Positions 9,052 through 22,502 of a stretch of DNA of 43,527 nt are shown piece by piece. The position numbers and the translations under genes were made by a program. The notes beneath the pieces were generated by a model. That model had not been told where the DNA came from and did no database searches. It worked only from the letters and a program-made list of their open reading frames with translations. The first letter of the stretch is position 1. Every line of letters starts with the position of its first letter. Source of the DNA: Acidobacteriota bacterium (GTDB lineage Bacteria > Acidobacteriota > Terriglobia > Acidiferrales > UBA7541); the NCBI GenBank assembly GCA_003167215.1, contig PMTV01000024.1, positions 3,606 through 47,132 on the forward strand, given 5' to 3'.

Positions 9052-10677
9052 CTACGGGTGAGTCGAACGGCTGGCTTCGCGCTCGGCGACGATTTTGCGG
9101 GCGTTTTGGTAAAGCGCACGAGCTTGGGGAATCAGTTCAACGGCTTTATCGAGCTGAGGATCGTCCTGTAGGGCTACTTTGAAACCCTCATTCAGGCCGA
9201 AAACGGAGGTGAAGACCTCGCGCTTAATCTGCCACTTCAGCCAGGGGAGGTTATCCTGGATTTCGGGTTCGGTATAATGAATGTGCTGGTCGCTCAGGTA
9301 TTTGCGGAGCTGGTTGATGACCTCTTCATTTACAACGAAATATTTGGTGATGTCCGGTTTTTCGCCGAGATAGTGGCGCGTGAAATCGCCAACGCCCTGC
9401 GGGAGCAAGTAGAAAACGCCCCGGCGGTACATGGTCTGCTCGAAATCGTCGGGCTTGGGCTCCGCGATGGTGTCGTCCGGAGTAATTCCGCCTTGTCCGA
9501 AAACCTGCCGACCGCTATCGGTTAGCTTCACTTCCGGCCGCGCCGGCTTCTGGGGATTATAGTGATAATCGTAGAGCGAAACATTTTTGTAGTCGCGTTG
9601 GATCAGGCGCCCGCTGGGAGTGTAGTAACGCGCCGTGGTGAGCAGCATAGCGGTGTCTTCGCTGAGCGGGAACTGAGTCTGCACCAAGCCCTTACCGAAG
9701 CTGGTCTCTCCAACGATCAAGCCGCGATCGTGGTCCTGAATGGCGCCCGCCACGATTTCCGAGGCCGAGGCGCTTTGCCCGTTGATCAGCACAACTACGG
9801 GAACTTCCAGGCCCTGATTTCCACGCAATGCGTAATAGCGGCGCTCCGGGGACAAACGCCCGTGATGAGAAACCACAATTTCGTTTTTGTCCAGAAACAT
9901 GTCGGCCAGACCGACGGCCTGGTTGAGCAGTCCGCCGCCGTTGTTGCGCAGGTCAATGATGAGTCCATCGAGCTTGGGGAAATCGAGCTGCTTCAGTGCT
10001 TCCGCCACGTCGCTGTCAGTGGTTTCGTTGAAGGATATGATGCGGACGTAGCCGATTCCCGGCTTAACCATGCCGTAATATTCAACCGCGGGGCGGTAAA
10101 TCTCGTCACGTGTGACTGAAACTTCGATGGGCTTGTCCCAGCCTTCTCGTCCCAGCGAAATATGAACCACGGTGCCCTTGGGCCCCTTGAGCATCTCGGC
10201 TACTTCGGTGGTGGTCAGGCCGTCGCACACTTTTCCTTCTACCTTCAGGATGATATCGCCAGGGCGAATTCCGGCTTTGTAAGCAGGAGACCCGACAAAT
10301 GGAGCGAGGACCACGGTCTGGTTGTCACGTCCCGTGACGGTCATTCCTACGCCGTAATATTTTCCCTGCTGGTCTTCCTTGAAGAGGGCGTATTGCTTGG
10401 GATCAAAAAAATTCGAGTGCGGGTCCAGGACGTGAAGCATGCCGGGAATCGCGCCATCATAGATGACTTTGTCGGTGTCAACCGGGTCGGCATAATTGCG
10501 TTCGACGACAGATAGAACGCGGGTGAAGCTCTTCACCGAATCCTGGACGTCGGTGTCCTTGGTGCCCGCGGCGGTGGCGCGGACGGAGGGGCCGTAGAGG
10601 CCTCCCAGCAGCGCCGAGACTCCCAAGACGACGACTAGAACGACGATTCCACGCTTAGAGGATGGCTGTGGTTCCAT
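9052..10677 (-). CDS. ctpA: C-terminal processing (tail-specific) S41 protease
   Basis: A 541-aa protease. Residues 10-30 are a signal-anchor. A PDZ domain follows at about 95-185 (GVGMTVTGRDN, YKAGIRPGDIILKVEG, GPKGTVVHISLGR). The peptidase core has DLRNNGGGLLNQAVGLADMF, the catalytic-serine box NGQSASASEIVAGAIQDH, and the catalytic-lysine box GETSFGKGLVQ. This Ser/Lys dyad is characteristic of CtpA/CtpB/Prc proteases that trim or degrade periplasmic proteins. A C-terminal region of about 150 residues is helical and lacks known motifs. The ATG has GAGGT 3 nt upstream, slightly close. A putative extended -10 lies 27-32 nt upstream of the start (see separate entry). Confidence 0.94.
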   Translation of the reverse strand: MEPQPSSKRGIVVLVVVLGVSALLGGLYGPSVRATAAGTKDTDVQDSVKSFTRVLSVVERNYADPVDTDKVIYDGAIPGMLHVLDPHSNFFDPKQYALFKEDQQGKYYGVGMTVTGRDNQTVVLAPFVGSPAYKAGIRPGDIILKVEGKVCDGLTTTEVAEMLKGPKGTVVHISLGREGWDKPIEVSVTRDEIYRPAVEYYGMVKPGIGYVRIISFNETTDSDVAEALKQLDFPKLDGLIIDLRNNGGGLLNQAVGLADMFLDKNEIVVSHHGRLSPERRYYALRGNQGLEVPVVVLINGQSASASEIVAGAIQDHDRGLIVGETSFGKGLVQTQFPLSEDTAMLLTTARYYTPSGRLIQRDYKNVSLYDYHYNPQKPARPEVKLTDSGRQVFGQGGITPDDTIAEPKPDDFEQTMYRRGVFYLLPQGVGDFTRHYLGEKPDITKYFVVNEEVINQLRKYLSDQHIHYTEPEIQDNLPWLKWQIKREVFTSVFGLNEGFKVALQDDPQLDKAVELIPQARALYQNARKIVAEREASRSTHP

Positions 10678-10703
10678 GCGACCTCGCTATGCCCCAAATT
10701 ACG

Positions 10704-10709
10704 ATTGTA
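10704..10709 (-). promoter_or_regulatory. Extended -10 promoter of ctpA
   Basis: On the minus strand the sequence reads TGTGGTACAAT, an extended -10 (TGN plus TACAAT). The predicted start would leave a leader of about 20 nt before the ctpA ATG at 10677. No good -35 is visible, which is normal for extended -10 promoters. The 10-mer GTGGTACAAT recurs upstream of the carboxyltransferase gene near 38376. Confidence 0.5.
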
Positions 10710-11378
10710 CCACATATGTTTTGGATGCCGTTCCGCGGGAGTGCGTGACATTCAACACTCTGTGGCGCCTGTGTTGCGGGATGCTGATGAGCTTTCGACG
10801 CGCTGAAAACGTTCGCGCGGGCGCAAAAAAGAGACGGATGGAGCGATGAAAATCGCGACTCCCATTTATTGATTTTTTGGCGATTTGAGCAGTTCACCGT
10901 TCTTTGTTTTCTGTAACTTAGAGTGGTTTCTACTTCCTGAGTTTGGCGATTTAACTTTCCGCAAAAACGGCTAGTTTTGACTGATGTTTGCATGTATGAG
11001 CGAGGCGTTTTCAAGTTCGCGGACTACGACCTTTCAGACGGCTGCTGGCCGCCTTCGTTAGCGCCGATCCTAATTCCAATTCTCATCGCAACAATGATAG
11101 GAAGTCAGGAGACGGAATGCAAGGATTTGCATGCTGTGGACATTTCAATTTTCGCGTTCAGGGGAAGTCAGAACCCGCACCCCTTCAGAAACCGAAGGGA
11201 TGCGGCAACCCCGCGAGTTCCAATCGTGCTTGAGTGAACCCTGGTGCCGCGAGGAAGGGTTGGCCACCCGCCAAAGTAGGCCCAAATCCCGCGCTCCGAG
11301 CCCAGCGTTGATGCTCATGTGCAACTATCTCTGTGCCTGACGGCATCGAACAAAAAGAGAAGGTCGGGAGGGAAGGGT
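10710..11378. other. Intergenic region without a convincing gene
   Basis: About 670 bases, more AT-rich than the flanking genes in its first half, lying between the ctpA promoter and the 90-aa/PIN unit. Short open frames exist on both strands but none has a good ribosome site or recognisable product. A short hairpin (CCCTTC/GAAGGG type, about 11185-11206) and tRNA-like fragments were examined and not accepted. The last 40 bases carry the ribosome site of the 90-aa gene. I see nothing else that can be supported. Confidence 0.5.
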
Positions 11379-11651
11379 ATGGACCTAAAAGCATACGTGC
11401 AACGTTGGGAAGAGCAAGACTCGCCGTACGGTCGGCATCTCGAATACTTCTTCACTGCAAGTCCCGAAAATGCGGCGACATGGCCAGCTAAAGATGAAGC
11501 CGATATTGATTGTAAGTGGTTTTTTGAACGTGCCAAGATTCGAATTCCTTCAGCGTGGGGCGGCTATCACTTTTGCACCGACTTCAAATCAGAGGAGCGG
11601 AGACCCGGCGAGTTCGTGGTTTTCTGTGAGGCGCCTTTCATACGCCAATGA
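11379..11651 (+). CDS. Unknown 90-aa protein upstream of PIN-like nuclease
   Basis: The ATG at 11379 has GGGAGG 7 nt upstream and is preferred over an in-frame ATG at 11319. The 90-residue product is acidic and rich in aromatic residues (HLEYFF, CKWFFERAKIR, SAWGGYHFCTDF), has no membrane segment and no recognised domain. Its TGA overlaps the next ATG (ATGA, 11648-11651), so translation of the two is coupled. The position is what one would expect of an antitoxin or a small specificity partner of the PIN protein, but nothing in the sequence matches a known DNA-binding antitoxin fold (no evident ribbon-helix-helix, AbrB or Phd pattern). Function unknown. Confidence 0.6.
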   Translation: MDLKAYVQRWEEQDSPYGRHLEYFFTASPENAATWPAKDEADIDCKWFFERAKIRIPSAWGGYHFCTDFKSEERRPGEFVVFCEAPFIRQ

Positions 11652-12535
11652 TTGAGTTCATATCTACATTCGACGGTCCTCCGATCTCGGTGCACGCGTC
11701 AATACGCGGGATGGCGATTTATCTGGATGCTTTCGCCGTGATCGAACTCGCCAAAGATGACCAGAAGCGGCGTCAAAGGTTTTTAGACACGCTGCACTCA
11801 GGCGCAGGCGTTCTCTTTTCCGTCTCAATGGTGGCTGAGCTATCACGGTTACCGAGCCATGCCATTGAGTTGGTTCGGTCTTTTTTGAACGACATCGGAC
11901 CGCACTGGTACCCAGTGGAGTTAGACGCAACCAAAGTCGTCAACCGGGAGAAGGACCTCTCGCGAGAGGGTGCAGCGTGCCTGTCAACGCAATTCATAAA
12001 CGATTACTTCCGAATCCGGATGCAAGATTTAGCCCCTCGACCAATCATCAGTCTTTCGGATGATTTCGCTCGCCTAGGTCCCGTGCTTGATTGGGTAACG
12101 CCCCAGCGCGATTCTATTCGGAAAGGGACTTATGACATGGACGACGCGCTTATAAAAAAGATCTCCGGGTACCGATCTCAGCATGAGCTTGATTCTTCGT
12201 GGCTTGATAGGACATTTCCGGAATTATCGTACGACTCCGTGCCACCTGCAACATTCGTGTACGTTAGCCTGATACGGTCGCTAATTCTCGAGGCAAAGGG
12301 TTATCAGCTGAAAAAGAACGACGGTTTGGATTTCTGCCACACAGTGATCGGTAGCGCGTTTGCAAATGTGGCCACGTTGGACAAACAATGGAAAAGACGA
12401 GTCGCAAACTTACCTAAACCCAACCGTGCGGCACCGGTCTTTTGCGCGAATGAACTCGACGCGATGGTCGACCTCCTAGAATCGGAAGTAAAGATCATGC
12501 GTGACACTCAGGCACTCGGAATGTCAGCGCGATAG
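11648..12535 (+). CDS. Large PIN-like domain protein (putative ribonuclease)
   Basis: A 295-aa protein. The PIN fold is suggested by spaced acidic residues: YLDAFAVIEL (Asp27), MVAELSRL (Glu64), KNDGLDFCHTVIG (Asp225, Asp228, His231) and VATLDKQW (Asp245). These match the usual order of PIN metal ligands, but the segment between the second and third motif is about 160 residues, much longer than in VapC toxins (total about 130 aa). If the assignment holds it is a metal-dependent RNase. The start is fixed by the ATGA overlap with the 90-aa gene; an internal ATG at 11711 lacks a ribosome site. The pair appears lower in GC than its neighbours and stands alone, consistent with horizontal acquisition. 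It could be a VapC-like toxin or part of a defence or RNA-processing pair. Confidence 0.65.
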   Translation: MIEFISTFDGPPISVHASIRGMAIYLDAFAVIELAKDDQKRRQRFLDTLHSGAGVLFSVSMVAELSRLPSHAIELVRSFLNDIGPHWYPVELDATKVVNREKDLSREGAACLSTQFINDYFRIRMQDLAPRPIISLSDDFARLGPVLDWVTPQRDSIRKGTYDMDDALIKKISGYRSQHELDSSWLDRTFPELSYDSVPPATFVYVSLIRSLILEAKGYQLKKNDGLDFCHTVIGSAFANVATLDKQWKRRVANLPKPNRAAPVFCANELDAMVDLLESEVKIMRDTQALGMSAR

Positions 12536-12644
12536 GCGGGTGGTCAAGCTTCGCTCGCGGGCACCGGGGTTCACCCAAGGAAGATTAAAACTCGCAGGGT
12601 CCTGCAGAAAAAGTTCGGGTTTGGGCGCCATCGGTGGCACGAAA

Positions 12645-13217
12645 TTAGAATGGAACGGCCCGCTTCATAGCGGCTTTTGAGTCTCGGGCAAAGCGTTTTT
12701 GCATCGCTCTGGTGTAGGGATAAGCCAAACGCGCCAGGGTTGTGGGACGCGAGATGGCGTAAAGGTCGTACCACACGGATTGATCTTCAGGATTGAATTC
12801 AACCGTGAAGCGCTCTTCTCCGATTTCTCCGTGGTCGGGAAGCGTACCGTAGGCGAAGCCGTACTTTTCCACTGAAGCGCGCTCTTCGACCGGGTAAACG
12901 ATTCGGCAGGCGTTCATGGACCAGAATCCGAGATGGGATATGACGACTGCTACAGTGGCGCCCGGCTCGATGGGCGTATCCGGCCAACATAAATCAATCC
13001 AAGGCATATCGAACATTTTCCACTGATGAACCGCGCTCTTGGCCCGTTCGAATGTATCGATGCCCTGACCTAGCTTGATTCGGTTGTGATCGGCGGTATA
13101 TCCGTTCGGCGCTTTTTGCCGAGTGCATCCAACTTCAGCGTATGAAAAATTCTGATTCTGCTGTACAGCGATGAACGCATTAATTGCGTCCCGGTTAGGT
13201 TTTGACGGGCAGAACAT
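12645..13217 (-). CDS. DUF1990 family protein
   Basis: A 190-aa protein with the DUF1990 pattern: NFSYAEVGCTRQKAPNGYTADHNRIKLGQG, then FERAKSAVHQWKMF, and the C-terminal TLARLAYPYTRAMQKRFARDS. The ATG at 13217 has GAGGA 7 nt upstream. An open frame continues to 13553, but that part antiparallels the padR gene and has no family similarity, so it is not included. The biochemical role of DUF1990 is unknown. It is divergent from padR, and its promoter region contains one copy of the 11-bp repeat also found at the padR promoter. Confidence 0.8.
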   Translation of the reverse strand: MFCPSKPNRDAINAFIAVQQNQNFSYAEVGCTRQKAPNGYTADHNRIKLGQGIDTFERAKSAVHQWKMFDMPWIDLCWPDTPIEPGATVAVVISHLGFWSMNACRIVYPVEERASVEKYGFAYGTLPDHGEIGEERFTVEFNPEDQSVWYDLYAISRPTTLARLAYPYTRAMQKRFARDSKAAMKRAVPF

Positions 13218-13260
13218 ACGCCTTTCCTCTGTGGCTAACGTAAAATCCGGCCATCTTGAG

Positions 13261-13271
13261 TTGTATCGTAT
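13261..13271 (+). promoter_or_regulatory. 11-bp direct repeat, copy 1 (possible PadR operator)
   Basis: TTGTATCGTAT at 13261-13271, identical to the copy at 13353-13363. It lies 44 bp upstream of the DUF1990 start. Its core GTATCGTAT is near-palindromic, as PadR-family sites often are. Operator function is inferred. Confidence 0.4.
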
Positions 13272-13332
13272 AGAACGATTCGCATCCTGGCCACCTGAAC
13301 TGCACAAGTCTGGGGGAGGAGAATCTTTCCTC

Positions 13333-13363
13333 TTGCGCTTCGACAGGAGACTTTGTATCGTAT
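13333..13363 (+). promoter_or_regulatory. padR promoter with overlapping repeat copy 2
   Basis: TTGCGC (13333-13338), a 17-bp spacer and TATCGT (13356-13361) form a moderate sigma-70-like promoter. The second TTGTATCGTAT copy (13353-13363) covers the -10. A repressor bound there would block the padR-permease transcript, the usual PadR autoregulation. This is a prediction from position and identity of the repeats. Confidence 0.4.
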
Positions 13364-13388
13364 CCCTGTAGAAGCGATGGGGGAAGGA

Positions 13389-13721
13389 ATGACGGAACAA
13401 AGGATCGAGCTTCCGCAAGGGACGTTGGACCTGCTGATACTGAGGACGCTGGCGCTGGGGCCGGAGCACGGGTGGGCGATTTCTGAGCGCATTCACCAAG
13501 TGTCCAGCAAAGTTTTGCAGGTGCAGCAAGGGTCGTTGTACCCGGCGCTGCACCGGCTGGAGCGGCGCGGATGGATCAAAGCGCGTTGGGGAGCGTCGGA
13601 GAACAACCGCCGCGCGAAATTCTACGAGCTGACTGCCAGCGGGCGGAAACAGCTGGAAGCGGAGAAGAGCGACTGGAAGAAGCTGGCGGCAGCGGTGGCT
13701 CAGGTGCTGGAGACGACGTAG
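13389..13721 (+). CDS. PadR family transcriptional regulator
   Basis: A 110-aa regulator when started at the ATG at 13389 (purine-rich GGGGGAAGGA immediately upstream; in-frame alternatives at 13353 and 13377). It has the PadR winged helix: ELPQGTLDLLILRTLALGPEHGWAISERI, VQQGSLYPALHRLERRGWI and SENNRRAKFYELTASGRKQLEAE, followed by a short C-terminal helix. This short PadR type is typically found directly upstream of ADOP permeases in Acidobacteria, as here (157 bp before the permease gene). It probably represses its own operon and releases DNA on an unknown stress or compound. Confidence 0.93.
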   Translation: MTEQRIELPQGTLDLLILRTLALGPEHGWAISERIHQVSSKVLQVQQGSLYPALHRLERRGWIKARWGASENNRRAKFYELTASGRKQLEAEKSDWKKLAAAVAQVLETT

Positions 13722-13765
13722 GAAGTACCTCCGCGGCTAAAGCCGGTCGTTTTTCCGGCGTTTAC

Positions 13766-13807
13766 GGCACGACTACCCTTCGCAGGCTCAGGGTAAAAAG
13801 TCGTGCC
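13766..13807. repeat. Long imperfect hairpin between padR and the permease gene
   Basis: GGCACGACT (13766-13774) pairs with AGTCGTGCC (13799-13807), and ACCCT (13775-13779) with AGGGT (13790-13794), with a 4-nt AAAA bulge and a 10-nt loop. A second short palindrome (GCGGCTAAAGCCG type) lies just before it at about 13734. The arrangement resembles dispersed palindromic elements rather than a terminator; it could also form a stem-loop in the padR-permease transcript. Confidence 0.5.
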
Positions 13808-13878
13808 CTGACGAACCGGCTCAGATGCTGGAGACGGCTTAGGGAGCTTCACAGGCGCAATCACTCAGGGAGCGGAAG

Positions 13879-16557
13879 ATGTTTAGCGACATTTTGATTC
13901 GGCTGCGGGCACTGTTCCGGCGCGACGCCGTGGAGAGTGAACTGGACGACGAGCTGCGGTTTCATTTCGAGCAGCAAGTTGCGAAGTACGTGCAATCAGG
14001 CGTGCCGGGCGAGGAAGCGAGGCGGCGCGCGCGGCTGGAATTCGGCGGAGCGGAGCAGATCAGAGAAGAATGCCGCGACGCTCGGGGCGTGAGCTTTTTC
14101 GAAACGCTGGCGCAGGATGTTCGCTACGGTTTCCGCATGCTGCGCAGGACGCCGGGATTTACTGCTATCGCTGTGCTCACGCTGGCTCTTGCCATTGGAG
14201 CGAACACAGCGCTCTTCTCGATAATCAACGGGGTGCTGCTGAATCCGCTGCCGTATCCGCGTCCCGAACAATTAGTGACGCTGCATGAAAGCAAGCCGAA
14301 TTTCAACACCGGCTCCATTTCGTATCCGAACTTCCTGGATTGGCAAAAGGAAAATCACACGCTGTCGTCCATGGCTGTTTCGCGGAGCTATTCTTTCAGC
14401 TTGACCAACCTGGGCGAAGCGGAGCAGATCCAAGGGCAATTTGTTACTTCCGACTTTTTTCCGATACTCGGCGTGAAGCCGGTAATGGGACGAAGTTTCG
14501 TCCGTAGCGACGACCAGATTGGCGCGGCTCCGGTGGCGATGATTAGTGCTGGTTTCTGGAAACGAAAGCTTAGCGGAGAGGCGGACGTGGTTGGCAAGAG
14601 CCTTACGCTCGACGGGAAGGAATTCACGATTGTCGGAGTGATTCCGTCGGACTTCGATCTGAAACTCGATAGCTTCAGCGCCGTTGATGTGTACGCGCCG
14701 GTGGTGCAGTGGAACAACAATTTGCTGTTCGATCGCGGAGCTGGGCTGGGCTTCCACGGGATTGGCCGACTGAAGCCGGACAGTTCGCTTGGACAGGCGC
14801 GCGCGGATTTTGCCGGAGTGACGGGAAATCTTGCCGCCGCTTACCCGGAAGTGAATAAAGGAATCGGCGCCGCGCTGATTCCGTTCAAGCAGCGGATGCT
14901 CGGCGATGTGAAACCGATTCTGCTAGTGCTGTTCTGCGCGGTGGGTTTTGTGCTGCTAATCGCTTGCGCAAATATCGCAAACCTTCTGCTGGCGCGGGCC
15001 AGCGGGCGAGCAAGCGAATTTGCGGTGCGTGCGGCGCTGGGAGCAGGGAAAGCGCGTTTGATCCGCCAGCTTTTGACCGAAAGCGTCTTGTTGGGAATTC
15101 TAGGCGGCGCTCTCGGTTTGCTGTTGGCTGGTTGGGGAACGCACGCGGCCCTGAAAGCGCTGCCTGAGACTTTACCGCGAGCCGGTGAAGTGGGCATGGA
15201 CCTGCGCGTGCTGCTTTTCACCACATCAATTGCTCTGCTGGCGGGGATTCTTTTCGGCCTGGCTCCCGCGCTGAAAATCTCGCGCACGAACGTGCACGAT
15301 AGTTTGAAGGAAGGCGGCCGTGGAGCGAGCGGAGCGCGAAAGGGCGCGCACGGCGTTTTGGTTGTGGTGGAAATGGCGCTCGCGCTCGTTCTGCTGATAG
15401 GCGCGGGGCTTACGCTGCGCAGTTTGGAGCAGCTGTGGAACGTGGATCCGGGATTCAATCCGCAAAACGTGATGTTCTTTGGTTTTTCTCTTTCGCCGAC
15501 GAGTCTGATGACGAGTCCGGCTGCAATTCGCGCTGGCTTTCGCAATGCAGACGGCGCGATTTCCGCCACTCCTGGTGTGCAAGGGGTGTCGATGAGCTGG
15601 GGAGCGTTTCCCATGAGCGGCGACGATGAGTGGCTCTTCTGGTTGGACGGACAACCAAAGCCGACGACGCGAAACGAAATGAACTGGGTGATCGATTACG
15701 TGGTGGAACCCGACTACTTGAAGATCATGGGAACGCCGCTGCGTAGCGGGCGCTTCTTCACGACGCAGGACGACGAGAATGCGCCGAAAGTGGTGGTTGT
15801 GGACGAGGTGCTGGCGCAGAAATATTTCGGAAAGGAAAATCCGATCGGCAAGCGTTTGTTTTTGGAAATTGGCCAGGGGGATATGGAGGCGGAGATTGTC
15901 GGAGTTGCCGCGCATGTGAAGCAGTGGGGGCTTGATACGGACGACACGGAGAGCCTTCGAGCGCAGCTCTACTTTCCGTTCATGCAATTGCCGGATAAGG
16001 TGATGGCGCTCGCGCCGATGGGCATGGGAGCAGTGGTGCGTTCGCGCGGCCCGGCGCCGGGGCTTTTCGATTCGATTCGCCACTCGGTGCAACAAGTGAA
16101 TAGCGAGCAGGTGGTTGCCGGAGCGCAGACGATGGACGAGATTATTTCGAGTTCTATCGCGAGCCGGCGATTCTCCATGATTCTTCTGGGCTCCTTCGCG
16201 CTGCTTGCACTGCTGCTTTCGAGCTTGGGGATCTACGGAGTGGTGTCCTACCTGGTGGGGCAACAAACGCGCGAGATTGGGATACGAATTGCGCTGGGCG
16301 CGCAACGCGGTGACGTGATGCGGCTGGTGCTCGGCGATGGCGTGAAGATGGCGCTGATCGGTGTCGCGCTGGGGCTTGCGGCCGCGGTAGGACTGACGCG
16401 ATTGATGACCAGCGTGCTGTTCGGAGTGAGCGCGACGGACCCGCTGACGTTTGGCGGCGTGGCGCTGCTGTTGGCGCTGGTGGCTCTGGCCGCGGCGTAC
16501 ATTCCAGCACGGCGAGCGACGCGCGTGGATCCGCTGGTTGCACTGCGCTATGAGTGA
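13879..16557 (+). CDS. ADOP-type ABC transporter permease (MacB/FtsX-like)
   Basis: An 892-aa permease. Residues 1-75 form the acidobacterial permease prefix domain ([19 protein letters not shown]). A transmembrane segment follows at about 95-118 ([26 protein letters not shown]), then a MacB-type periplasmic domain, three membrane segments with [14 protein letters not shown], a second periplasmic domain, and a C-terminal membrane block ending [17 protein letters not shown]. The duplicated FtsX layout defines 'acidobacterial duplicated orphan permeases', which lack an adjacent ATPase, as here. Such proteins are thought to export small molecules or act on the envelope with ATPases encoded elsewhere. 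It is regulated with the upstream padR. GGGAGCGGAAG precedes the ATG. Confidence 0.93.
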   Translation: [892 protein letters not shown]

Positions 16558-16582
16558 ACCGCGAGCGGAAGTGGGGGCTGGG

Positions 16583-16696
16583 CTACGCCTGGAGTAAGGC
16601 TGCCATTGGGTGTACCCGGCTTGCGCGGCGGGCGGGCACAAAACTTGCGAGCAGGGCTGCCACCACCAGCACGCGAAGGAAAAATTCAAAAGCTTT
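16583..16696 (-). pseudogene. C-terminal remnant of an ADOP/MacB permease
   Basis: On the minus strand a 38-codon open stretch between stops reads LRVLVVAALLASFVPARRASRVHPMAALLQA. This aligns with the extreme C-terminus of the two full permeases here ([24 protein letters not shown] and [24 protein letters not shown]). There is no start, no upstream permease sequence, and the PsiE-like gene begins its 3' end 28 bp away. This is a deletion remnant of a third permease gene, in the same orientation as the permease at 18343-20787. Confidence 0.7.
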
Positions 16697-16723
16697 TCAC
16701 CCTTTCAAAGCGACGGGAAGCCC

Positions 16724-17257
16724 TTAGGGTTCCGTGCCTTTTGGTGAGGGGGCGTAGCGACGCAAGAGCGTAATGGAGCACACCAAAACTAGGATGAGGA
16801 ATCCCAACAATCCCAGCTCAAGCATGCTAGCTCGAAATATGCTGGCAACCTCGGTCGACCAGGTTCCACCTTTTGTGAGTGTGGCCGCTTCCAAGGTGAT
16901 CACAAGGACGCGCCGGATCGAAGCGATCAGACCGACGACAAGGAACGGCTCAGTAACCAAGTAATGCGAGTGGATGGAAATGCGCACAGTGTGCAGAATC
17001 TCGACGAGCATCAGCACAACGAGCAGTTGGTCCAGCACTAGAAGGGTCTGAGTGGCAATCGTCCAATGAGCGAGGCCTTCCCAGAGCATTTTGCCGGCGT
17101 TTGCAATCGTGGCGAGCGCGGTTATGAAAAGCAACAATGCAAGGACGGTATAGATGATCACTTCGGCCTTGCTGAGATAGTCGCTAAAGTGGACGCGAAG
17201 TTTCTCTTCGGGCATATGGAGTCGCTCGCAGGATCGGTCTGATTCGGGCTCGTTCAC
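16724..17257 (-). CDS. PsiE-like (phosphate-starvation-inducible E family) membrane protein
   Basis: A 177-aa protein with four predicted membrane segments (about 33-55, 69-92, 103-122, 145-166). The middle carries the PsiE pattern VLDQLLVVLMLVEILHTVRISI, then HYLVTEPFLVVGLIASIRRVLVITLE. The family is inner-membrane and of unknown biochemical role. The start is uncertain. A GTG at 17257 lies 5 nt after a TATACT -10 and would be leaderless; an ATG at 17215 would give 163 aa and a leader of about 40 nt. Neither has a good ribosome site. Confidence 0.8.
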   Translation of the reverse strand: MNEPESDRSCERLHMPEEKLRVHFSDYLSKAEVIIYTVLALLLFITALATIANAGKMLWEGLAHWTIATQTLLVLDQLLVVLMLVEILHTVRISIHSHYLVTEPFLVVGLIASIRRVLVITLEAATLTKGGTWSTEVASIFRASMLELGLLGFLILVLVCSITLLRRYAPSPKGTEP

Positions 17258-17262
17258 GGCAG

Positions 17263-17290
17263 AGTATAACGATAAGCCGGTCTATCCCAA
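17263..17290 (-). promoter_or_regulatory. Promoter of the PsiE-like gene
   Basis: On the minus strand TTGGGA (17290-17285), a 16-bp spacer and TATACT (17268-17263). The predicted transcription start falls at or next to the GTG at 17257. Confidence 0.5.
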
Positions 17291-17431
17291 AGCGAGAACG
17301 TCGATGCGCTGTCGGCTGGTCTTCCGTACAGGTAACCCGGGCGATACGCTTGATATGGGAGGGCGTTGACCGCGCCGGACGGGGGACATACCGTTGTCTT
17401 AAGGTTCTGAAGCTCCAGAACGGAGACAACG

Positions 17432-18178
17432 ATGAGCGACGTGCGCGAGAATAGTGTGTCACCGAAATCCTTGCCTGCAGAGGCGGCCGTTTACACACCG
17501 AGTTGGCAGTCTCGAACCCTAGTGTTTCCTGGAACCGCGGTTGGATTGCTGATTCTGGCGCTGAACCTCGCGCCGGCCGCGCTCGGTCAATCGCAATCAA
17601 CGACTCCTTCAGCGGCGACAGCTCCGGCCGCGGCGCAGGCGCAAACCAAAGCAGCTTCGCAATCCGAGCCGCAAATGCAGGACCAATCGGCCCCGGCGCA
17701 GGAATCGTTGGCAGACGCTGCACGTAAAGCGAAAGCGCAAAAAACCAATTCAGCGACCAAGGTTTATACCGAGGATAAGTTGTCCGGGCTATCGGGCCAT
17801 GGAGTTTCCTCTGTGGGGTCGGGGAGTTCGGGCGGAGCTTCAGCCGGTCCAGGAAATTCATATGCCAACTCAGGCGGGAACGCTGGTGCGTCATCTGGAA
17901 AAAATGACGAACAGTACTGGCGGGGCAGAGCGCAAGGCATCCGAGATCAAATGGCTCAGTTGGACCAGCAAATCGCCGGAATTCAGGAAGAGATCAAGGC
18001 GAAAGGCGCTGTCACCATCGATCCCATGAGTGGGGCGTCTGCGGGCGTAATTTATATTGAGGATCGGAACCGCCAGATCAAGGACATCGAAGGGCAAAAA
18101 GCCAAGCTGCAAGATCAGCTGGAAGCCCTGGCGGAAGATGGGCGCAAAGCCGGCGCGGATTCCGGCTGGTTCCGCTGA
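17432..18178 (+). CDS. Secreted Ala/Gln-rich coiled-coil protein, RKAGxDSGWxR family
   Basis: A 248-aa protein; CGGAG lies 6 nt before the ATG. A 30-residue N-terminal stretch precedes a hydrophobic segment (about 31-52, ending PAALGQSQ), so it is exported or anchored. Then come an Ala/Gln/Ser-rich linker, a motif ESLADAARKAKAQ...KVYTEDKLS, a Gly/Ser-rich spacer, and a coiled coil (about 155-240) ending RKAGADSGWFR. The same two motifs in the same order occur in the protein at 27817-28464, so they are paralogues. No enzyme motif is present; an envelope structural or scaffold role is likely but unproven. It is convergent with the permease gene at 18343. Confidence 0.75.
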   Translation: MSDVRENSVSPKSLPAEAAVYTPSWQSRTLVFPGTAVGLLILALNLAPAALGQSQSTTPSAATAPAAAQAQTKAASQSEPQMQDQSAPAQESLADAARKAKAQKTNSATKVYTEDKLSGLSGHGVSSVGSGSSGGASAGPGNSYANSGGNAGASSGKNDEQYWRGRAQGIRDQMAQLDQQIAGIQEEIKAKGAVTIDPMSGASAGVIYIEDRNRQIKDIEGQKAKLQDQLEALAEDGRKAGADSGWFR

Positions 18179-18316
18179 GACCACATGGAAAGACTACACC
18201 TGCTACTTTTGATGAGAAGCTGGCTTCTGGCTATCTGCGCCGTGAAGGCGGCAAGTATGCTCGCGCCGATGAGAGCGAAAGCCATTCGAGCCTGGAATCA
18301 AAATCAGCGCTGACGA

Positions 18317-18343
18317 ACCGCTTGATTCAAAGTATTAAGCGGT
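18317..18343. terminator. Possible bidirectional terminator between convergent genes
   Basis: ACCGCTT (18317-18323) and AAGCGGT (18337-18343) form a 7-bp stem with a 13-nt loop. It lies between the convergent coiled-coil gene and the permease gene and touches the permease stop codon. No T-run on either strand, so support is limited. Confidence 0.3.
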
Positions 18344-20787
18344 CATTCATGCCGAAGCGCGACTAACGGATCTACTCGCGCGGCACGGCGAGCGGGCAGC
18401 CAGCAAGCCAGAAGTCCGGTAATCAGCAGCACAAGCTGTACACACGCGAGAGTCCAAGGATCGTAAGGCGAAACTCCCCAGAGCTGCGTCGCGATGATTT
18501 TTCCCAATGCGACGTTGGCGAGCAATCCCAGCCCCACCCCGATGGCCACCAGCCGGAGGCCCATGCGAATTACCATGACGAGCACATCGGAGCCCTCCGC
18601 ACCGAGGGCCATGCGGATACCGATTTCCTGGGTACGCTGCGCCGTGGTGTAGGCGAGCACGCTGTAAACGCCGATGGTCACCAGGATCAGCCCGATGGAG
18701 GCAAAGATGATCATCAGCGTGAAGCCGAACCGCGGGCCGGCGTAGGAGAACTGGCTGATGTAGCCCTCCAGGGTGCCGGTGAGTGTGAGCGCGACGTTGG
18801 AGTCAGTGGCCCAGATTTCGTGGCGCACGGCATTCATCATGGAGAGAGGATCTTGCGTGGTGCGAACCATAATGCCGCGGAATGCCGATCCGGTGACAGT
18901 ATACGGCACCCAGATTTCCGGCCCGACCGGATCTTGGAGGCCGCGATTCTTGAGGTCGGCGACTACCCCTACGATCTCGAACGTCGGGTCCGCCACCTTA
19001 TCGTCGAATTCAGAAAGTTGCGCGATGCGCACGCGATCGCCGATGGGATTCTCTGCGGGCAAGTATCGCTTCACGAACGCCTGATTCACTACGGCGAGTT
19101 TGCGGGCGTCATTGACCTCCGGTTCGGTAAAAGGTCTGCCATCGAGAAACTGGATTTTGAGAACGGGGAAGTAACCTTCGCTACAGAGTTGGAACATGGC
19201 GTTCCATTTCTCCGAGTGCGTCTTCCCAGGGATATCGATGTCGCTGACTAATCCGCCGTAGGGAGGAAGATCGCTCGTCTCAGTGGCTGCGACAACACCC
19301 GGCAAGGCTTTCAAGCGCTGTAGTAATGGGCGGTAAAAACCAGCCAGCTGGTCCGCGGTTTTGTAGCGCTCTGCCGGGAGAGGCAATCGCGCGACGAGGA
19401 TATGGTCCGGTTGGAAGCCGAGATGCACTTCGCGGAGAGCCATAAAGCTCCGCATCAAAAGGCCCGCCGCTACCAGAAGCGTGAGCGAAAGCGCGACCTC
19501 CGTGACCACGAGTGCATTACGGAATTTTCCGTGGCGGAAACCGCCGCTGAAACCTTTGCCGGTGTCGCGCAGCGGCTCGTTCAAGTCTTTTCGGGCGGCC
19601 TTCAGCGCCGGGGCTAAGCCAAAGATCAGCGCAGTAACGATCGCTACAGCCAGCGTGAAGAGTAGAACGGTCGTGTTCAGTCGGATGACCGCTTCCGAGG
19701 GGATAATGTCCTGCGGCACGAGCGCCACGATGAATTTCAAACCAACCCATGCCAGCAACGCTCCCAGTAGTGCGCCGCTCAGCGCTAGAATCAGGCTCTC
19801 CACGAGAAGCTGGCTAATCAAACGGCGACGGTTCGCGCCAAGCGCGGAGCGAATAGCAAATTCTTTCTCGCGAGTTGTGGCTCGGGCCAGAAGAAGATTC
19901 GCCACGTTTCCGCAACCGATTAATAGGAGCAAACCGACGGCGGAAAGCACGAGATAAAGAGTTTTGCTGAATTGCCCGACGACCATATCCGCCAGCGAGT
20001 GAATTTCGACGGTAAAGTGTTTTGGATAATCTTTGGGGTAAACGGTTGCGAGCTGCTTGGCCACGACAGTCAAATCTGCTTCGGCTTGCTTCACCGAAAC
20101 GCCGTGCTTTAGGTGGCCCAAGAAAAACCAATAACGCGTGAACGCTCCGGATCGGTCCTTCGCCGCAGCCGCGCGGCTGGGCTTCTCGGGAATCCACGCT
20201 TCAGCATCGCCCCATGAGAAGCGCGGGGGCATGATGCCGATCAGCGTTCGCGACGTGCCATTCAGGACGAAATTCTTGTTCAGGATAGCTGGATCGGCGC
20301 CAAAGTCTTTGACCCAGGTCTTGTAGCGCAGAACGAAAACAGGAGGCGCGCCCGGCTCATAATCCGCCGGCTGCATTACTCGGCCCAGGAGCGCAGGCAT
20401 GCCGAAAAATTCAAACGTCCCCGGCGTGACGTAATCTCCCTGGAAGCGTAGCGTGCCCTCGCCGGCCCGGTATAGGAGGTCCACACTGTCGTCGCCGATG
20501 GCGCGGTCGAATACACGATTCTGCGCGACGTAATCCGGAAATTCGGGCCCGCTGAAGTCGCCGCGCCCGCCAGACTCTTCTCTCTCGGTGTCGTGGATCC
20601 GTATGGCCATGAAGCGTTGCGCATCGGGGTAAGGAAACGGCTCCATCAGAATGTTTTCGATAACGCTGAAAATCGCGGTGGAGGCTCCAATTCCCAGAGC
20701 CAGGGTGAGGACTGCAACGAGGGCGAAGGCGGGTGCCTTCCTTAAAGTCCTGAGTGCATACCGGATATCCTGTGCGAGTGTTTCCAT
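18343..20787 (-). CDS. ADOP-type ABC transporter permease without prefix domain
   Basis: An 814-aa permease with the duplicated MacB/FtsX layout. A first membrane segment (about 17-40) leads into a MacB-type periplasmic domain; membrane segments with GCGNVANLLLARATTREKEFAIRSALGA follow. After a second periplasmic domain, the C-terminal block has TAQRTQEIGIRMALGAEGSDV and ends PARRAARVDPLVALRHE. It starts at METLAQDIRYALRTLRKAPAF, so it lacks the 75-residue prefix domain of the permease at 13879, whose matching segment begins near its residue 75. AAGG precedes the ATG by 4 nt. No ATPase or PadR gene is adjacent. Export of an unknown compound is inferred from the family. Confidence 0.92.
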   Translation of the reverse strand: METLAQDIRYALRTLRKAPAFALVAVLTLALGIGASTAIFSVIENILMEPFPYPDAQRFMAIRIHDTEREESGGRGDFSGPEFPDYVAQNRVFDRAIGDDSVDLLYRAGEGTLRFQGDYVTPGTFEFFGMPALLGRVMQPADYEPGAPPVFVLRYKTWVKDFGADPAILNKNFVLNGTSRTLIGIMPPRFSWGDAEAWIPEKPSRAAAAKDRSGAFTRYWFFLGHLKHGVSVKQAEADLTVVAKQLATVYPKDYPKHFTVEIHSLADMVVGQFSKTLYLVLSAVGLLLLIGCGNVANLLLARATTREKEFAIRSALGANRRRLISQLLVESLILALSGALLGALLAWVGLKFIVALVPQDIIPSEAVIRLNTTVLLFTLAVAIVTALIFGLAPALKAARKDLNEPLRDTGKGFSGGFRHGKFRNALVVTEVALSLTLLVAAGLLMRSFMALREVHLGFQPDHILVARLPLPAERYKTADQLAGFYRPLLQRLKALPGVVAATETSDLPPYGGLVSDIDIPGKTHSEKWNAMFQLCSEGYFPVLKIQFLDGRPFTEPEVNDARKLAVVNQAFVKRYLPAENPIGDRVRIAQLSEFDDKVADPTFEIVGVVADLKNRGLQDPVGPEIWVPYTVTGSAFRGIMVRTTQDPLSMMNAVRHEIWATDSNVALTLTGTLEGYISQFSYAGPRFGFTLMIIFASIGLILVTIGVYSVLAYTTAQRTQEIGIRMALGAEGSDVLVMVIRMGLRLVAIGVGLGLLANVALGKIIATQLWGVSPYDPWTLACVQLVLLITGLLACWLPARRAARVDPLVALRHE

Positions 20788-20970
20788 ATAGCCTTACGTA
20801 CGACGGGGTTTTCCGCTGCCACAAAGACATATTGAAACATAAATTGTTCGACGCAGGCGCGCCAAATAGGTTGTTTGGGCCGGCATCCGGCGGAGGACTA
20901 AAGTGCTGCCGGTGGCCGCAGGGAAACGAGCCGGTTTGCGGATTCTTGGCACCAATGCGAGAATACCTTC
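20788..20970. promoter_or_regulatory. Divergent promoter region (permease / FKBP isomerase)
   Basis: 183 bp between divergent starts. On the plus strand TTGCGG, 17 bp, then TGC-GAGAAT (20959-20964) is a plausible extended -10 ending 6 nt before the FKBP ATG, which has no ribosome site. For the permease side no clear promoter was found. Confidence 0.3.
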
Positions 20971-21795
20971 ATGAAAAAACTATTGATCACGGCGGTAGCA
21001 ATATTGGCGGCAGGCATCATATCGGCTGGGAATGCGATGGCACAGCAGACTCCCGCGTCGAGTCCTTCACAAGCACCTCCTGCTCCGGCGTCACAAGCGC
21101 CTGCTACGAAGGCACCAGCGGCTGCAGGGACCGCTCATCATGCGACTGCGGCGAAAAGCGCGGCGCCCTTGGTGCTGAAAACGGATAAAGATAAAGCCAG
21201 CTACGCCCTCGGCATGAATATGGGGAAGGGCCTGCAAAAGGACGCTGTAGACATTGACCCGAATATCTTCGCGCGGGGATTAAAAGACGGAATGGCCGGC
21301 GGCAAGACGCTGATGACGGAAGAAGAAGCGACGGCAGCGATAAACGTACTAAAGGCGGCAGTGAAGAAAAACCAGGAGGCAAAGATGCAGCTAGCCGGAG
21401 ATGCGAACAAGAAAGAAGGCGACGCATTTTTGGCCGCCAACAAAACGAAAGAAGGTGTGGTTACGCTACCGAGCGGCCTGCAATACAAAATTTTGACCGC
21501 AGGGGACGGGGCGAAGCCGACCGCGGCTGACTCCGTCGTCTGCAACTACAAGGGCACGCTCATTAACGGAAAAGAATTCGACGCTTCTTCCAAACATGGC
21601 GGGCCGGCGACGTTTCCAGTCGGCGGAGTGATTAAGGGATGGACGGAAGCACTGCAACTCATGCCAGTTGGATCGAAGTGGCAACTTTTTGTTCCGGCTG
21701 ACCTGGCCTATGGCCAGCGCGCCATGGGCCCCGATATAACGCCAGGAGCCACGCTGATTTTTGAGGTTGAGCTACTTTCAATCAAAGCCAAGTGA
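20971..21795 (+). CDS. FKBP-type peptidyl-prolyl isomerase (FkpA/Mip-like)
   Basis: A 274-aa periplasmic chaperone/isomerase. The signal peptide (residues 1-24, ending AMAQQ) is followed by an Ala/Pro-rich linker. An FKBP N-terminal dimerisation domain is at about 70-165 (DKASYALGMNMGKGLQKD, FARGLKDGMAGGKTLMTEEEA). The FKBP catalytic domain is at about 175-272 (VVCNYKGTLINGKEFDASS, FPVGGVIKGWTEALQLMPVGSKWQLFVPADLAYG, TLIFEVELLSI). Catalytic-pocket aromatic and Asp residues of the family (Y, F, D, W, Y) are present. It assists folding of exported proteins. There is no good ribosome site; the gene may be leaderless. It heads a plus-strand run that includes the Tat translocase genes. Confidence 0.93.
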   Translation: MKKLLITAVAILAAGIISAGNAMAQQTPASSPSQAPPAPASQAPATKAPAAAGTAHHATAAKSAAPLVLKTDKDKASYALGMNMGKGLQKDAVDIDPNIFARGLKDGMAGGKTLMTEEEATAAINVLKAAVKKNQEAKMQLAGDANKKEGDAFLAANKTKEGVVTLPSGLQYKILTAGDGAKPTAADSVVCNYKGTLINGKEFDASSKHGGPATFPVGGVIKGWTEALQLMPVGSKWQLFVPADLAYGQRAMGPDITPGATLIFEVELLSIKAK

Positions 21796-21856
21796 GAACT
21801 CGCGTTTAACAAACTGATGCGATAAACGGCTCTCCGCCGCGGGCGCGCTCGATTGT

Positions 21857-21959: not shown

Positions 21960-22502
21960 ATGTTCAGCATTCCACACCTGGTCATAATTTTCGTCGTAGT
22001 TCTGGTGGTATTCGGGCCAGAAAAGCTGCCGGAATTGGCGCGGAATCTCGGGAAGATCATGGGAGAATTCCGGCGCGCTACAGGAGACCTGCAGAATACG
22101 TTCGAAGGCCATCTTCGGGATATCGAGCGCGAGTCGAGCCTGCGCCAGACGGCTACGGGAGCGGGAACGACAATCGCTCCAGCCGTGCAGACTACAATCG
22201 CTCAGCCCCAAACGGATTTCGCCAGCGCGGCGGGAACTGTTCCCAGTGATGCGCCGCACGGTTGGACCGTGGCGCCCTCGAACCCATCTGCAGGAGAGAA
22301 TGCCGGGACGCCTGCGGATACTACGGCGGAAACGACCGGAGCGACGCAGGCGGACGCAAGCCATGCGCAGCCGGATGTGGTCAAACTGACGCGAGAGCCC
22401 TTGGTCAGTCCACCGGGCAAGAAAGCAGACTTAGACCAGGCGAGCGCAGCCGGCGCGCCCAAGCCAGTCCGCGCGAAGGGGAGCGATGGCGGCGCAAACT
22501 GA
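21960..22502 (+). CDS. tatB: Twin-arginine translocase subunit TatA/TatB
   Basis: A 180-aa protein. One N-terminal membrane helix (residues 5-19), the FGPEKLPELARNLG hinge, and an amphipathic helix (about 24-60) with GEFRRATGDLQNTFEGHL are the TatA/B layout. The Asp/Glu-rich amphipathic helix and long disordered Ala/Pro/Thr tail fit TatB better than TatA, but the two cannot be separated with certainty. It works with TatC at the inner membrane to export folded proteins. The last 17 bases overlap tatC, indicating one transcript. A strong promoter lies upstream. The ribosome site is weak. Confidence 0.88.
   Translation: MFSIPHLVIIFVVVLVVFGPEKLPELARNLGKIMGEFRRATGDLQNTFEGHLRDIERESSLRQTATGAGTTIAPAVQTTIAQPQTDFASAAGTVPSDAPHGWTVAPSNPSAGENAGTPADTTAETTGATQADASHAQPDVVKLTREPLVSPPGKKADLDQASAAGAPKPVRAKGSDGGAN

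Follow-up and report, generated by a model that had tools for sequence, protein, structure and literature searches.

A predicted PIN-fold nuclease with a long helical insert and its overlapping upstream ORF in a genomic island of an Acidobacteriota bacterium

Known PIN nucleases and the layout of the locus

HARP proteins (homologues of Aquifex RNase P, in the PIN_5 cluster), VapC toxins and the solo toxin-like nucleases of mobile islands are the described systems with which the locus presented here is best compared. In a review, HARP is presented as a PIN domain that is split and has a helical domain inside it (PMC10941002), and in PbHARP two long helices (residues 97-122 and 131-165) protrude from the nuclease domain, the catalytic set being D151, D155 and D173 (PMC9051087). 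Among toxin-antitoxin families, solo toxins are frequent (PMC2701414). The locus lies in a stretch of 43,527 nucleotides of a soil bacterium of the Acidobacteriota (contig PMTV01000024.1, positions 3,606 to 47,132), hereafter the window, whose features of interest are the following.

10725..21850 (approximate ends), no strand: insertion of about 11.1 kb between the ctpA/S41 peptidase gene (9052-10677) and tatA (21960-22502), from synteny with congeners
11166..11272, plus strand: left copy of a dispersed repeat of about 110 bp
11379..11651, plus strand: ORF1, 90 aa, without a family match; Shine-Dalgarno-like stretch GGGAGG at 11366-11371
11648..12535, plus strand: ORF2, 295 aa, predicted PIN-fold protein (model pTM 0.83); start backed by homologues
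11726..11728, plus strand: codon for the first of the acidic PIN-site residues, Asp27, invariant in five members
11837..11839, plus strand: codon for the second of these residues, Glu64 (Glu in four of the five members, Asp in the other)
11957..12319, plus strand: mostly helical insert between the PIN half-domains, residues 104-224, about 110-120 aa, from the secondary structure of the model and a spacing table
12320..12382, plus strand: D225-xx-D228-x16-D245 motif followed by W-x-R-R, conserved in five members
12535..12626, minus strand: right, inverted copy of the repeat of about 110 bp, its inner end coinciding with the final base of the PIN stop codon

As in HARP, a helical insert appears to divide the PIN domain of ORF2 immediately ahead of the catalytic Asp pair, and the spacing of the Asp residues is similar (PMC9051087, PMC10941002); PbHARP has D151-xxx-D155-x17-D173 where ORF2 has D225-xx-D228-x16-D245 (PMC9051087); the places of the two inserts are similar and may be homologous. 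However, HARP is of about 23 kDa, whereas the members of the ORF2 family have 268-295 aa and are mobile and sporadic, and ORF2 differs further in having an acidic residue at position 64, the place of the Glu of VapC-type PINs. Since the PIN_5/HARP profile of Pfam matched none of five ORF2-family members, membership of ORF2 in HARP is unsupported, and the resemblance in layout is to be taken as a lead. With VapC, ORF2 shares the predicted PIN fold, the Asp/Glu/Asp/Asp set and, at this one locus, a small upstream ORF that seems to be coupled to it, but it has an insert of about 110 residues and twice the length (295 against about 130 aa), and it lacks both a conserved antitoxin gene and a Pfam PIN match. 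Like the solo toxin-like nucleases of mobile islands, ORF2 is sporadic, stand-alone and found in mobile settings; toxicity or defence is putative in its case. The ORF2 family is an unannotated mobile branch of the PIN nucleases, absent from PADLOC, whose domain insert follows a HARP-like layout.

Predicted fold, acidic site and insert of ORF2

An AlphaFold model of ORF2, built from an alignment of four sequences, reached a pTM of 0.83 and a mean pLDDT of 80. Its top structural matches, reaching a Z of 7.6, were PIN domains (those of a Pyrococcus protein, Rrp44, VapC, SMG6 and HARP), all Z values being below 8 and so in the middling range of the tool. Foldseek again placed PIN proteins first, with a best E of 0.15, and a search of a viral library of folds returned nothing usable. 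The structure prediction thus bears out the PIN protein that a previous sequence-only reading had proposed, and from the model we consider it very probable that ORF2 has a PIN fold; it is also probable that it acts as an endoribonuclease. The profiles of Pfam, NCBIfam, PADLOC and PHROGs gave no convincing match for ORF2; the Pfam PIN profile did not match it up to E 5, and neither ORF1 nor ORF2 was matched in PADLOC up to the same value. Running PADLOC on four ORF2 relatives revealed a single weak match to RT_UG36 (E 0.0049). A weak sequence resemblance of ORF2 to the T4 clamp-loader gp44 (E 0.0034) was taken as chance.

The acidic residues proposed earlier for the active site (D27, E64, D225, D228 and D245) are all present where they had been placed. 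Five intact members were compared, namely ORF2 of the window and those of G061, palsa_253, G470 and G531, and in all of them D27, D225, D228, D245, W248, R250 and R251 are invariant and the 17-residue spacing between the last two Asp residues is constant, while position 64 has E in all but one member, which has D. The protein had also been described as an oversized PIN of 295 aa with about 160 residues inserted between its motifs: the length is correct (268-295 aa in the family) and the insert exists, but its size was overstated. E64 and D228 are 164 residues apart in ORF2 (153-165 across the family), as against 52 between E47 and D99 of a VapC encoded a few genes from the G061 member, and the net insert is therefore of about 110 residues. 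It ends right before D225 and is helical for the most part (residues 114-214). Placed between the PIN halves, this insert may contact or select RNA, as the spike helices of HARP do.

The island, the ORF pair and the distribution of the family

The gene of the S41 peptidase directly adjoins tatA in 12 of 13 congeners and is about 11.1 kb away from it here, the insertion falling exactly in the divergent ctpA-tatA promoter region that is uninterrupted in the 12. This synteny agrees with the suspicion, raised from the letters of the DNA, that the pair is isolated like an acquired island, and the lower GC content suspected along with it was also found (51.3% for the pair against 56.8% for the window, which places it in the bottom 1% of stretches of the same length). 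When coding was scored with a simple test of codons, ORF1 obtained 0.013 and ORF2 -0.004, below the 0.12-0.24 of most neighbours, as expected for acquired genes; the reading frame of ORF1 has the best coding score of its six frames, near the score of ORF2. According to Pfam, the island also carries genes for a DUF1990 protein, PadR, two MacB/FtsX permeases, a PsiE-family protein and an FKBP isomerase.

Both ORFs lie at the coordinates first read for them, and the end of ORF1 and the start of ORF2 overlap in the sequence ATGA. Coupling of the two is plausible because the Shine-Dalgarno-like GGGAGG stands seven bases 5' of the ORF1 ATG and no such stretch was seen close upstream of ORF2; the overlap would then serve translational coupling. 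The start of ORF2 is supported by the relatives, since all five intact members begin at the equivalent Met (MI in four, ML in one).

Two inverted copies of the dispersed repeat, whose first half is palindromic, bracket the pair, with an alignment score of 85 against a shuffle maximum of 46. The notion that they delimit a separate cassette was weakened: the repeat occurs 11 times in this genome, 30 times in G015, the closest relative, and 5 times in G010, with some copies clustered, and being dispersed it is no proof of a cassette; moreover, no inverted repeat stands out around the other ORF2-family members. Separately, the ORF translations of positions 10655-11014 of the window (minus strand) and of L092 6968-8158 share a KLNRQT..CSNRQKIN-like stretch, which suggests a second dispersed non-coding repeat.

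Relatives of ORF2 were sought in the host's own family, phylum and class and, by means of a motif, in 84,980 species genomes. This brought to light six more loci, every one of them in Acidobacteriota, and two are broken: the copy of SbA1 is split by a frameshift or an assembly error and that of G025 has an internal deletion. Identity to ORF2 is 41-43% for G061, 38% for palsa_253, 31% for G470 and 24% for the remote G531. Counting the genome of the window each time, the protein is present in 3 of 89 genomes of the host's family, 2 of 396 of its phylum and 4 of 399 of its class. The relaxed scan of the 84,980 genomes yielded four loci, again all in Acidobacteriota, and as it used an exact motif diverged relatives could escape it. 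No match was obtained by tblastn of ORF2 and the relatives L007 and L024 against plasmids, or of ORF2 and L024 against phages, and the scans of IMG/VR revealed no relative; the motif pattern matched every family copy known by then. As the members are few and two are broken, selection for function is poorly measurable.

ORF1 and the possible roles of the pair

ORF1 had no Pfam match at the cut-off, none in NCBIfam, PADLOC or PHROGs and none to an antitoxin profile, and its single-sequence model was uninformative (pLDDT 60). No convincing homologue appeared in 89 family genomes, 396 phylum genomes, plasmids or IMG/VR. Matches at E 0.01-0.1 were judged to be chance, and so was one in G374 (E 9e-4 among the 396 genomes), whose frame is antisense to another ORF. 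Five relatives have enough upstream sequence for ORF1 to be looked for (G061, palsa_253, G470, G531 and G025), SbA1 with its mere 75 bp of upstream sequence having been left out, and it is missing at all five. The PIN gene begins about 105 bp past a permease gene in G061 and about 110 bp past a tRNA-Cys in G470, it follows what we read as an excisionase-like remnant in palsa_253, and in G531 its start and the next gene are about 290 bp apart. No plausible coupled upstream ORF was present at four of the five; in G025 the PIN gene is preceded by an ORF of 83 aa, a fragment that weakly resembles the end of DUF4238 and has no relation to ORF1. The pair had been proposed as a possible new toxin/antitoxin, phage-defence or RNA-processing system; with the second gene found without the first at every testable relative, which that reading had itself named as grounds against it, a conserved two-gene system is not supported, and ORF1 is therefore not an obligate partner. 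Any of these roles may still belong to ORF2 by itself. The best reading of the sequences is that ORF1 would be a lineage-specific add-on, an overlap that couples two genes in a single genome being weak evidence for a two-gene system.

ORF1 and ORF2 could still form a toxin-antitoxin pair if ORF1 were an upstream coupled antitoxin, as in vapBC, with ORF2 as the toxin, and if partners were swapped between lineages such that the relatives use other antitoxins or an RNA. The ATGA overlap with a small gene upstream and the similar codon scores of the two ORFs speak for it, as does the frequency of solo toxins already mentioned (PMC2701414); in addition, the end of the PIN gene in the remote G531 overlaps a downstream ORF of 130 aa (L024 393-785), different from ORF1 and with no match in Pfam or PADLOC, which fits an exchange of partners. 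We nevertheless regard this explanation as unlikely, given that ORF1 is missing at all the testable relatives, four of them with no plausible coupled upstream ORF and G025 with its weak DUF4238-like fragment, and that neither an antitoxin profile nor the ORF1 model lends it the character of an antitoxin. Rather improbable too is that ORF2 is transient cargo without a function under selection in its present host and ORF1 a chance ORF: the internal deletion in G025, the frameshift or assembly error in SbA1, the lack of ORF1 homologues and the alien codon usage would fit it, but the copy in the window is unbroken and retains all the residues that are invariant in the family, and ORF1 scores best of its six frames. 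That ORF2 is a HARP-type tRNA- or RNA-processing enzyme (protein-only RNase P-like) and not a conflict gene is very unlikely, for although the insert stands directly before the D225 motif, as the PbHARP motif stands in and after the long helices (PMC9051087), and HARP structures are among the matches of the model (Z up to 6.8), VapC structures match it equally well, Pfam gives no PIN_5/HARP match, and sporadic presence, mobile settings and broken copies are ill-suited to a housekeeping role.

By our own estimates, on which all the likelihoods in this text are based, we somewhat favour a reading of ORF2 as a PIN-fold nuclease that stands alone and moves horizontally, with ORF1 as a lineage-specific add-on and conflict as its most likely role. 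ORF2 would be one of the accessory genes carried by islands and mobile elements, most likely encoding a divalent-metal-dependent endoribonuclease that, when triggered, would cut host or invader RNA in conflict with phages or other elements, and ORF1, coupled by translation, may tune its expression or activity. Taken by itself, the role in conflict is a tentative proposal. It would be a long shot to see here a new family of mobile PIN effectors of Acidobacteriota that use the helical insert to sense or select a specific RNA and that recruit unrelated small partners in different lineages (the 90-aa ORF here, the 130-aa ORF in G531), that is, a defence effector with exchangeable control parts. 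Should the nuclease prove to act in defence, it would offer a way into the study of defence in Acidobacteriota, a major phylum of soils that has been little studied.

Support for a role in defence comes from contexts that resemble one another loosely, since no neighbour gene is common to all the ORF2-family loci. Beside the broken PIN gene of G025 there is a condensin-like operon of four genes (L099 3637-8977; MksE/JetD-like, Wadjet-type), in which the match is good for MksE, weak for the ATPase and JetD-like genes and absent for the first gene. The PIN gene of G470 has two tRNAs and the gene of an N6_N4 DNA methylase nearby, and that of palsa_253 is flanked by two integrase genes. In G061 the PIN gene adjoins an FRG gene scored as PDC-S15, and near both is a pair formed by a MazE-type antitoxin and a VapC (L006 2105-2830), the latter matching PF01850.
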